Source: a virus
Length of the DNA: 64,000 nucleotides
Virus record (IMG/VR): IMGVR_UViG_3300046787_000390
Coordinates: 1 to 64,000 of that record
Strand: one strand, 5' to 3'
The notes beneath the pieces are model-generated. The model made no database searches and had not been told where the DNA came from. It worked only from the letters and a program-made list of their open reading frames with translations. Below are positions 20,561 through 31,880 of the stretch, piece by piece. Position numbers and translations under genes: made by a program. Every line of letters begins with the position of its first letter. The first letter of the stretch is position 1.

Positions 20561-20716
20561 GCAGTTACGACTCGCACAGGTCAATATCATGTGCCTAGAG
20601 ACAACTCGATAAAAAGAGGGACGGAAGCCTCGCCGCGCTAGCGAGCACTCAATCACTATCCTTAACAGGACGACGATCGCTTAACACCTGCGGTTTGATT
20701 GTTTGAACAGAATTTT

Positions 20717-30184: not shown

Positions 30185-30209
30185 AAAAAGCCCCGCAAGG
30201 GGCTTTTTC
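30185..30209. terminator. Bidirectional intrinsic terminator after gp23
   Basis: AAAAAGCCCC-GCAA-GGGGCTTTTT, a perfect stem flanked by A-run and T-run. It can end gp23 transcripts on the plus strand and transcripts of the amber-interrupted gene on the minus strand. Confidence 0.9.
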
Positions 30210-30215
30210 TTTGGC

Positions 30216-30812
30216 TCAACTATACTCGTAACCAGTGTCTGGATCTAAGTAATCAACATCAATATACTTGCCCTTGACATTATCGTAAGCTCGGTAGTAA
30301 CCTTCGTTAGGTGCAAGTATTCTAAACTGTCCGGCATACTTTAATCCAAAGAATGTCATGTCTTCTTTGTTTAAGATATCACAAATTACAAATGTTGTAG
30401 AGCAAGCGCCTGAAATAGTTTTAAACGGCGAATGTTTAACTTCGTTGCTTTGCAGAGCTCTGTGAATATTAGTCCCAGGCTCAAACATGATTCTAGTGAT
30501 ACCTAACTTCTGATTACGAAGTCTAAACTTGTCGTAGATGTTTAACTCGCGAAGAGTTGCACAGTTATTCTCGTCAATTGTGAGAAGAACTTCTTTGAAC
30601 TTGATACTACCTTTGGTATGGGGATTGTCGGATGTTTCCTTGGTGCTCCAAGGCATGTTGGCATCAACATGATTGACATAGAAAGTTTCACCATGTGTTT
30701 TTAAGACCCACATTGGTATGGTCTCGTCTTCTAAGTGCTTTTTGTTAAAGTGGAAGACTACATCTTTACAAGCATATTCAATCTAGATAGCGATAGGGTT
30801 TAAATCGGTCAT
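30216..30812 (-). CDS. Conserved phage protein with in-frame UAG at codon 10 (predicted readthrough)
   Basis: The frame runs from ATG at 30812 (AAGGA 8 bases upstream, late box TATAAATA before it) through nine codons, a TAG at 30785-30783, and then 188 open codons to TGA. Codons between the TAG and the next ATG (IEYACKDVVFHFNKKHLEDETIP) look coding and read smoothly into MWVLKTHGETFYVNHVDANMPWSTKET, a sequence style conserved among T4-like phages of aquatic bacteria. Function is unknown. A tRNA with CUA anticodon lies directly upstream, so readthrough is plausible. Otherwise translation would have to start at codon 34 (30713), which has no ribosome site, and would give 165 residues. A sequencing error or decaying gene is the alternative. 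Confidence 0.7.
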
Positions 30813-30831
30813 TTTATTTTCCTTAAAAAAG

Positions 30832-30839
30832 TATTTATA
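30832..30839 (-). promoter_or_regulatory. Late promoter box (full TATAAATA) for the amber-interrupted gene
   Basis: On the minus strand TATAAATA begins directly after the CCA end of the tRNA gene. An AAGGA ribosome site and ATG follow within 19 bases. Confidence 0.7.
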
Positions 30840-30916
30840 TGGTGCGCTATGCGGGAATCGAACCCGCTTCCTACTGGTTTAGAATCAGTTGCCCGGACCA
30901 TCTGGGCACATAGCGC
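30840..30916 (-). tRNA. tRNA with CUA anticodon (amber-decoding, suppressor type)
   Basis: A 77-base cloverleaf with encoded CCA. Acceptor GCGCTAT/ATAGCGC is perfect; D stem GCCC/GGGC; T arm GCGGG-TTCGATT-CCCGC is canonical; discriminator A73. The anticodon arm is ACTGA-TTCTAAA-CCAGT, with four pairs plus an A31-C39 mismatch; loop geometry puts C34-T35-A36 as anticodon, preceded by U33 and followed by A37-A38 as usual for tRNAs reading UNN codons. A UCU (Arg) reading would need misaligned stems and is rejected. Positions 8-9 are G-T rather than the usual T8. The charged amino acid cannot be read from sequence; the short variable loop argues against Ser, Leu and bacterial Tyr types. Confidence 0.85.
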
Positions 30917-30981: not shown

Positions 30982-31050
30982 GCCCGCAATAATGCGGCTT
31001 ATGCAGTTAGCCACTGCGTAGCGGCTAGAACCCGCATTGGGCTTCTATAA
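30982..31050 (+). other. Structured 5' leader of the decoration-like mRNA
   Basis: GCCC and AATGCGG near 30982-30997 can pair with CCGCATTGGGC near 31034-31044, leaving a small bulge, and GCAGT-TAGCC-ACTGC forms an inner hairpin. The AAGGAG ribosome site lies just past the structure. Possible mRNA-stabilising or translation-enhancing leader. Confidence 0.4.
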
Positions 31051-31061
31051 GGAGAAATCAA

Positions 31062-31880
31062 ATGGGACGAGCTCTAAAAATTCAAAAATACGGTACCGCA
31101 CAAGGTATTACATACAATGCAAACGGAACAGCAAATACACCTGCTGCTGCTGTTGCAGTCGATCAAGGTTATCCAAACTTTGGTAGTTTAACTGACCCAG
31201 TTTACAACTCTGCAAACACTCTAAGTGCCAGTGACTTCTTGGGTGCTGTAGGTGGCTTGAGCACAAGTGCTACCAGTGCTACATATCCAATCATTTTACC
31301 GCAAGTTAACATCAGTACTGCTGACGGTAGTTCTACTGGCGCAGGCAATGGCCGCATTATCCGCCAAAAAGGCGCACACAAGTTCTTGGTAGCTTATGTT
31401 GCTAGCGCCACAGCTGACGAGAGTTTCATTGTTGGCCAAGCCTACAGTGTTGCTGTGGTAGGCACAACAGATTGGGCCGCAGTTGGTGCAGGATCAAATG
31501 TGGCTGTTGGCGACATTTTCACTGCTACTGCTGTGGGCGCAGGAACTGGCACTGCTTACCCAGTTGGTCAATGCGTTTTAGCAAATACAGGAACTCCTGC
31601 TGCTGGCGAGATGAGCATCGAATTCTCGGTAGGCGACAGTGCTGCTGTTTATGCTAGTTACATCACTAACAAGTGGATTCGTGACTGGAACGGTATGACC
31701 GTTGGTAACTACTCTAACGACAACACTGGCGTTAACGTTCAATCTGGTGAGAACTTCTATCCAGTTAACTTCTTCACAGACGAAGGTACAGTTACATGGT
31801 CTGGCGCAGAAGTTATTGGCGGCGCAACATCACAAAACGGTTCTCTACAACTTGCTCAAGTTGTTAAATCGACAAGTTAA
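31062..31880 (+). CDS. Virion structural protein, probable head decoration protein
   Basis: A 272-residue beta-rich protein with AAGGAG ribosome site. It starts MGRALKIQKYGTAQG, a start seen on structural proteins that follow gp23 in T4-like phages of aquatic bacteria. Residues about 125-175 form a Gly/Val/Ala/Thr-rich insert (GQAYSVAVVGTTDWAAVGAG and GDIFTATAVGAGTGTA) of a kind reused in many phage surface proteins. Composition and placement suggest an abundant outer capsid protein; the assignment is inference. A terminator follows. Confidence 0.6.
   Translation: MGRALKIQKYGTAQGITYNANGTANTPAAAVAVDQGYPNFGSLTDPVYNSANTLSASDFLGAVGGLSTSATSATYPIILPQVNISTADGSSTGAGNGRIIRQKGAHKFLVAYVASATADESFIVGQAYSVAVVGTTDWAAVGAGSNVAVGDIFTATAVGAGTGTAYPVGQCVLANTGTPAAGEMSIEFSVGDSAAVYASYITNKWIRDWNGMTVGNYSNDNTGVNVQSGENFYPVNFFTDEGTVTWSGAEVIGGATSQNGSLQLAQVVKSTS

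Follow-up and report, generated by a model that had tools for sequence, protein, structure and literature searches.

A gene interrupted near its start by an in-frame UAG and the CUA-anticodon tRNA gene beside it appear to form a translational gate in a phage genome: from comparative evidence, we consider it roughly 80% probable that this early UAG is read through by the phage's own suppressor tRNA. The gated protein would then probably be made only once that tRNA works. The window is the whole 64,000-nucleotide stretch of viral DNA that contains the pair, and the full virus record from which it comes (133,497 bp; G000) was analysed beyond the window.

The UAG-split gene and its tRNA

Both Rfam (RF00005, 53 bits) and ARAGORN (anticodon CTA) placed a tRNA at 30840-30916 on the minus strand, in agreement with the initial annotation; the ARAGORN label 'tRNA-Pyl' means a CUA anticodon only. 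The 3' (CCA) end of this tRNA lies 27 nt from the ATG (30812-30810) of a gene on the same strand, in which the UAG at codon 10 is followed by 188 sense codons and a TGA stop (30218-30216), and the arrangement first described was thereby confirmed in its coordinates. The locus comprises the following features.

30840..30916, minus strand: amber-reading tRNA gene, anticodon CUA, CCA encoded (ARAGORN, Rfam, alignment with 36 homologous suppressor tRNAs)
30832..30839, minus strand: TATAAATA, T4-type late promoter box (sequence; TAAATA enrichment in relatives)
30820..30824, minus strand: Shine-Dalgarno (SD) AAGGA, 7 nt 5' of the ATG (sequence; SD conservation in relatives)
30216..30812, minus strand: putative UAG-gated gene, 198 codons plus stop, product P0001 if the UAG is a residue
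30783..30785, minus strand: in-frame UAG, codon 10, with A (AUU) next (sequence; UAG in 82/82 loci)
30543..30782, minus strand: conserved N-terminal all-beta core ('FHFNK' domain), residues 11-90 (alignments, AlphaFold2)
30279..30539, minus strand: C-terminal alpha/beta domain, residues 92-178, long clade only (AlphaFold2 model)
30185..30208, minus strand: terminator-like hairpin AAAAAGCCCC-TTG-CGGGGCTTTTT, 3' of the gene (read by eye)

The major-capsid gene and the next structural gene flank the tRNA and the gated gene, which are on the minus strand. The gated gene is antisense to the capsid and portal genes and therefore lies outside the virion operon. Accordingly, the earlier proposal of a matched pair within a T4-like virion operon held for the amber tRNA and its target in a T4-like phage of otherwise standard code and failed for the operon. 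The tRNA is the sole tRNA of G000, and the gene is its sole start-proximal stop-split ORF of comparable length; other split-ORF candidates were short and carried TGA or TAA. That the whole record holds one tRNA and one such ORF argues against a chance pairing. TAG terminates 6 of the 164 called ORFs in G000 and is thus still a terminator, which indicates a code that is otherwise standard. Two hallmarks of code-15 phages gave opposite results in this genome: a phage-encoded CUA tRNA was present, but the use of UAG as a sense codon in many genes was not seen. Two further RNA matches were obtained from Rfam, a Polynucleobacter-1 RNA (91 bits, window 20569-20704, plus strand) and a freshwater-2 cis-regulatory RNA (74 bits, 30982-31064, plus strand) directly upstream of the plus-strand gene at 31062; together they suggest a freshwater Burkholderiales-type host for the window virus.

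The AlphaFold2 model of P0001 had a pLDDT of 94.9 for the all-beta core and a mean pLDDT of 80 for the C-terminal domain. The N-terminal tail that holds the UAG position was poorly conserved, variable in length and modelled with low confidence. P0001 gave no Pfam hit above cutoff, and sequence searches of Pfam, PHROGs, NCBIfam and the PDB returned no convincing match; Foldseek searches of the PDB with the full model and with the core returned nothing at E <= 0.001. In BFVD, the model was best matched by a homologue of 160 residues (51% identity) that has no known function. A WW-domain identity was rejected, the matches being weak and not significant, and so was a reading of the C-terminal domain as a degenerate peptidyl-tRNA hydrolase 2 (PTH2; hhalign probability 1.3%). 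P0001 matched no Pfam family and showed no profile similarity that would place it in the PTH2 family (PF01981).

Conservation of the early UAG and of the CUA tRNA

A viral-contig scan yielded 234 relatives of the gated gene, and wider scans gave 410 and 62. The 82 loci examined first, of which 61 are unique, all had an in-frame UAG at codons 2-10. The stop was always UAG, never UAA or UGA; it preceded the conserved IEYACKDVVFHFNKK segment in all 82, with an ATG a few codons 5' of it. After the wider scans, 122 unique loci carried an early UAG. The base directly 3' of it was A in 112 of these and G in 9, i.e. a purine in 121; a purine at this place favours suppression. Genomic contexts were many, often with tRNA arrays. 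The UAG occupies other internal sites of the gene in L120, L098 and L127, and three Paenibacillus prophage copies (L089, L091, L112) and L111 were ungated, with no CUA tRNA seen for these four. In the ungated Paenibacillus homologues the frame runs from an upstream ATG through the region of the stop. One genome-collection scan found an ungated Paenibacillus prophage copy as its sole family member.

The segment from the UAG to the next ATG had a pooled pN/pS of 0.23 in frame as compared with 1.16 and 2.32 in the other frames (117 unique relatives); by this measure it is coding and under purifying selection, as the initial annotation had supposed. The start upstream of the UAG, for which the TATAAATA box and the AAGGA had been cited, also gained support, with an SD at the ATG preceding the UAG in 102 of 121 unique loci and at the first ATG past it in none. 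This is contrary to the possibility, raised at the outset, that homologues all start at codon 34. TAAATA occurred within 80 nt upstream of the gated ORF in 54 of 122 loci as compared with 8 in an upstream control window, consistent with the late expression that the box had suggested. Because of this enrichment, the switch probably joins late transcription with tRNA availability.

A CUA tRNA lay within the fetched flank of 84 unique gated loci, often 21-40 nt upstream of the gene, and flanking CUA tRNAs shared the strand of the gene in 82 of 82 cases. By hand tally, ∼112 of the 122 gated loci had a CUA tRNA in the same record, ∼28 of these detected by a whole-record covariance model or pattern, since ARAGORN misses some odd suppressor tRNAs. 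Searches by ARAGORN, covariance model and pattern found none in about 10 loci, on contigs of <30 kb (L020, L028, L040, L080, L172, L196) or of 100-300 kb (L191, L173, L115, L132). Many phages have a CUA tRNA and no gate on the family gene. An anticodon complementary to a linked in-frame stop, as expected of a functional nonsense suppressor pair, was therefore found as UAG/CUA in these ∼112 loci and as UGA/UCA in Agrobacterium phage Atu_ph07.

Suppressor tRNA bodies were very diverse, whereas the acceptor end (GCG...CGC-A73; G1-C72, C2-G71, usually G3-C70, and A73) was constant in most. The window tRNA has G1-C72, C2-G71, G3-C70 and A73. The constant acceptor end suggests that one kind of synthetase serves these tRNAs. 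The canonical TTCGA T loop and a variable loop of 5-6 nt set them apart from the tRNA-Pyl architecture. At the top of the anticodon stem, positions 31 and 39 are mismatched in many of the aligned tRNAs (C-A, A-C or C-C).

Several other features of the gated loci were recorded. A phage tmRNA gene lies a few kb or less from the gated gene in 16 of the 122 unique loci, the tmRNA-bearing loci including Rhizobium phage RHph_I1_18 (L480-L488), L018, L022, L031 and L064. In L092 and L093 the family ORF ends in two tandem UAG codons despite a nearby CUA tRNA; L096 has UAA there. In L200 (3118, plus strand), a homing-endonuclease-like ORF is preceded by ATG-x-TAG-ATT-GAA-TAT, as if it had been inserted into, or copied onto, the 5' end of a gated gene.

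PTH2 and the movement of the stop codon

In most family members without an early UAG, the gene just upstream encodes PTH2 (PF01981). A PF01981 match at E <= 0.01 was obtained for 16 of 18 aligned phage neighbours (best 1e-20; L107 reached 31.9 bits, the cutoff being 23). No PTH2 was found in a search of the 133,497-bp record G000. The early UAG in PTH2 is typically codon 3 or 4 (MT*INNQKLRVV). The gate states of the two genes were scored for 172 unique loci.

UAG in family gene, PTH2 not seen: 103 loci of 172
No stop in family gene, UAG in PTH2: 39 loci of 172
UAG in both genes: 15 loci of 172
No stop in family gene, UGA in PTH2: 1 locus of 172
UAG in family gene, none in PTH2: 2 loci of 172
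No stop in either gene: 2 loci of 172
No stop in family gene, PTH2 not seen: 10 loci of 172

Among the loci scored as lacking UAG in the family gene (about 54), PTH2 thus has UAG in 39 and UGA in 1. On re-reading, four of the ten loci with no stop and no PTH2 seen proved to be gated (L173, L146, L143, L125), two have UAG at another internal site (L120, L127) and the rest (L089, L091, L112, L111) are ungated. L162 and L199 fall inside the UAG-gated clade of the family gene in the core-domain tree yet carry the gate in PTH2, and the gate state changes ∼15 times on this poorly resolved tree. When the search was started from PTH2, an early UAG was found in 69 of 79 unique viral loci, 57 of the 69 having a CUA tRNA within 4 kb, and phage PTH2 genes are, as far as these comparisons predict, gated as a class. 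An SD was recognisable at the gate ATG of PTH2 in only 25 of 70 gated loci.

The gate is also present in cultured genomes (RHph_I1_18, Atu_ph07, Phosso, XacN1 and RAS14) and is therefore not a metagenome assembly error; with the UAG in 82 of 82 loci, this excludes the assembly artefact against which the initial annotation had cautioned. A UCA suppressor was reported for Atu_ph07, with no specific target named (PMC6102473). PTH2 of this phage has UGA at codon 7 (MIGEHF*INYEELG), and its genome has 30 ARAGORN tRNAs, one with UCA and none with CUA. In its relative Phosso, the corresponding PTH2 stop is UAG (MKY*VEEKL), and the genome carries two CUA tRNAs and no UCA tRNA; other Atu_ph07 relatives have UAG at the same place (MLTNSFL*EAIARY). 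Stop identity thus tracks the tRNA anticodon, both partners having changed, in a comparison that includes one UGA/UCA phage only. General avoidance of TAG terminators was considered and rejected, these being rare in G000 and not in Phosso (44/463).

In RHph_I1_18, codon 6 of an ORF that is not annotated is UAG, a tRNA-CUA lies just downstream, and the code looks standard. For Xanthomonas phage XacN1, the authors did not identify targets of its CUA tRNAs (PMC5852040), of which there are two in each terminal repeat. In ORF364 of XacN1, where a C-terminal PTH2 is fused to a longer N-terminal part, codon 3 is UAG (AGAGGA...ATG AAG TAG ACC); ATG-AAG-TAG lies upstream of the annotated start (L490 1925-2800; XacN1 about 243735-244595). 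ORF364 is a candidate for the target that the published orphan CUA tRNAs lacked. The main PTH2 of XacN1 (ORF295) was rejected as the gated gene, because it is ungated and the second, fused PTH2 has the gate. Stenotrophomonas phage RAS14 shares the MK*T start of ORF364 and has a CUA tRNA; it also has an ARAGORN tRNA with the ochre-reading anticodon UUA (L493 2252-2326).

In mycobacteriophages Cane17, NoodleTree, Myrna, Phabba and ScoobyDoobyDoo (Bixzunavirus and Myrnavirus; L489, L492, L495, L496, L497), PTH2 begins with ATG-TAG-GTG or GTG-TAG-GTG directly 3' of promoter-like TTGAC and -10-like boxes, and a CUA tRNA follows shortly past PTH2. The UAG could possibly be a codon 2 gate if the mRNAs are leaderless. 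The annotated start is the GTG past the TAG, which an SD-like GGAGG fits in some; for this reason these loci were kept out of the gated counts.

Readings of the early stop codon and their meaning

The data are best explained by the following model. The phage would make a UAG-reading tRNA, and an in-frame UAG lies among the first ten codons of the neighbouring gene, so that synthesis of the full protein would require the charged phage tRNA to win the competition with release factor 1. This would amount to an AND switch that requires (late) transcription of the gene together with transcription, processing and aminoacylation of the phage tRNA. The adjacent PTH2 would be gated likewise in related phages, instead of or besides the family gene. 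From this synteny alone, we infer that the gated unit is a peptidyl-tRNA recycling module, the expression of which would be coupled to phage tRNA function. Peptidyl-tRNA drop-off and ribosome stalling should become more frequent under suppression or tRNA stress, and the enzyme would recycle the products; the module may therefore counter such drop-off or ribosome stress. The tmRNA genes in 16 of the 122 gated loci fit a translation-maintenance purpose of this kind. The gate would be regulatory in role, and readthrough is much better supported than this proposed purpose.

It could be argued that the UAG ends a leader minigene and that the real start is downstream (the AUU at the UAG, an internal GTG or the ATG at codon 34), with regulation by reinitiation or drop-off. 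AUU is a rare start codon, and AUG-x-UAG resembles drop-off minigenes. AUU directly follows the UAG in 87 of 122 loci, and GTG is the first start codon of any kind past it in 68 of 121, an SD-like motif being present at the first start in about 30 of 121. However, the codon past the UAG varies (ATC, ATA, GTA, ACT, AAA, AAC and others), the first ATG past it never has an SD, and a start at ATG34, where no GTG or TTG intervenes, would remove the first conserved strand. The UAGs at other internal places, the ungated Paenibacillus homologues that read through the region and the paired switch between Atu_ph07 and Phosso, for which a leader stop needs no anticodon match, also make this explanation improbable. 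A genome-wide alternative code (code 15), in which the window UAG would be one recoded codon, is less probable still: it would account for the suppressor tRNA, and some distant relatives are recoded megaphages (LR756501, with several UAG in PTH2), but G000 has no second comparable split gene, TAG still ends genes there, the UAG occurs only in the first codons of a single gene family, and RHph_I1_18 likewise looks standard-code. Decoding as a special, pyrrolysine-like residue needed at that position would fit a dedicated tRNA and a conserved stop, but is very unlikely given the poorly conserved, low-confidence and length-variable tail, a stop that moves between genes and sites, and T and variable loops unlike those of tRNA-Pyl. 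A pseudogene or sequencing error, to which the broken frame might point, can be given almost no weight in view of 122 unique loci, purifying selection and cultured isolates.

A variant of the readthrough reading, compatible with it rather than exclusive, is that the suppressor tRNA has its main job elsewhere, at host or phage UAG terminators, and that the gated genes are feedback sensors or counter-measures that make recycling enzymes according to the level of suppression. This variant is tentatively entertained as a possibility. That the gated enzyme is a peptidyl-tRNA hydrolase, that tmRNA genes accompany some gated loci and the parallel with autoregulatory RF2 frameshifting are in its favour, but no extended proteins of phage or host have come to light, and for the one tRNA of G000 a single target is visible. 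Sequence data do not separate a timing version from a feedback version.

RF2 (prfB) is the subject of an autoregulatory frameshift at an early in-frame UGA. Like the present genes, it is a translation-factor gene with an early stop, its expression set by competition between termination and decoding, although it acts by frameshift and release-factor level rather than by a suppressor tRNA. Decoding of pyrrolysine and selenocysteine similarly uses a dedicated tRNA to read a stop in few genes, but the residue position here is neither conserved nor functional-looking, and we know of no dedicated synthetase or insertion element for the gated system. Recoding was reportedly put forward as a lytic switch by Borges et al. 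(2022). Phages with suppressor tRNAs have been described in which stop codons are recoded (code 15), and this has been proposed to control late expression (PMC9523058, PMC11210395, PMC10879173). Those phages, like the present ones, infect standard-code hosts and encode a CUA suppressor tRNA that reads, or here would read, UAG codons of their own genes; here, by contrast, the rest of the genome is standard, and only the first codons of one or two small genes include the UAG, which is kept there across very diverse phages. In E. coli, a synthetic feed-forward 'leak dampener' built on a suppressor tRNA has been made to work (PMC7969014). It likewise combines an amber-codon target with a suppressor tRNA for tight AND-type control, but it is engineered and often has several ambers, whereas the proposed gate is natural and has a single early stop. 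Summit has a CUA tRNA with no identified target (PMC9022506). The suppressor tRNAs of Atu_ph07 and XacN1 were also published without a target, for which a PTH2 gene with a matching early stop is now a candidate. A literature search over a limited set of published papers retrieved genome-wide recoding, targetless suppressor tRNAs and the synthetic circuit, but not the pairing.

Taken together, these comparisons make it likely, at about three-quarters confidence, that standard-code phages harbour a previously unrecognised and widespread class of natural gene control. In it, a dedicated nonsense-suppressor tRNA would act in trans as the translational key to a single operon, that of PTH2 and its companion, with a stop that moves between genes and switches with the anticodon. 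The class may extend to the Bixzunavirus and Myrnavirus mycobacteriophages, through leaderless AUG-UAG-GUG or GUG-UAG-GUG starts. The putative gate was found in hundreds of diverse phages and is not a one-off. It would give a concrete answer to the role of lone suppressor tRNAs in standard-code phages, open for XacN1, Atu_ph07 and Summit, with testable targets named in cultured phages, and would be a natural precedent for engineered suppressor-tRNA AND-gates. For many phage PTH2 genes the annotated start would then be a false internal one, and the annotation of RHph_I1_18 would have missed the companion gene entirely. Phage tRNA arrays, tmRNA and peptidyl-tRNA hydrolase would thereby be linked into one regulated translation-maintenance module.
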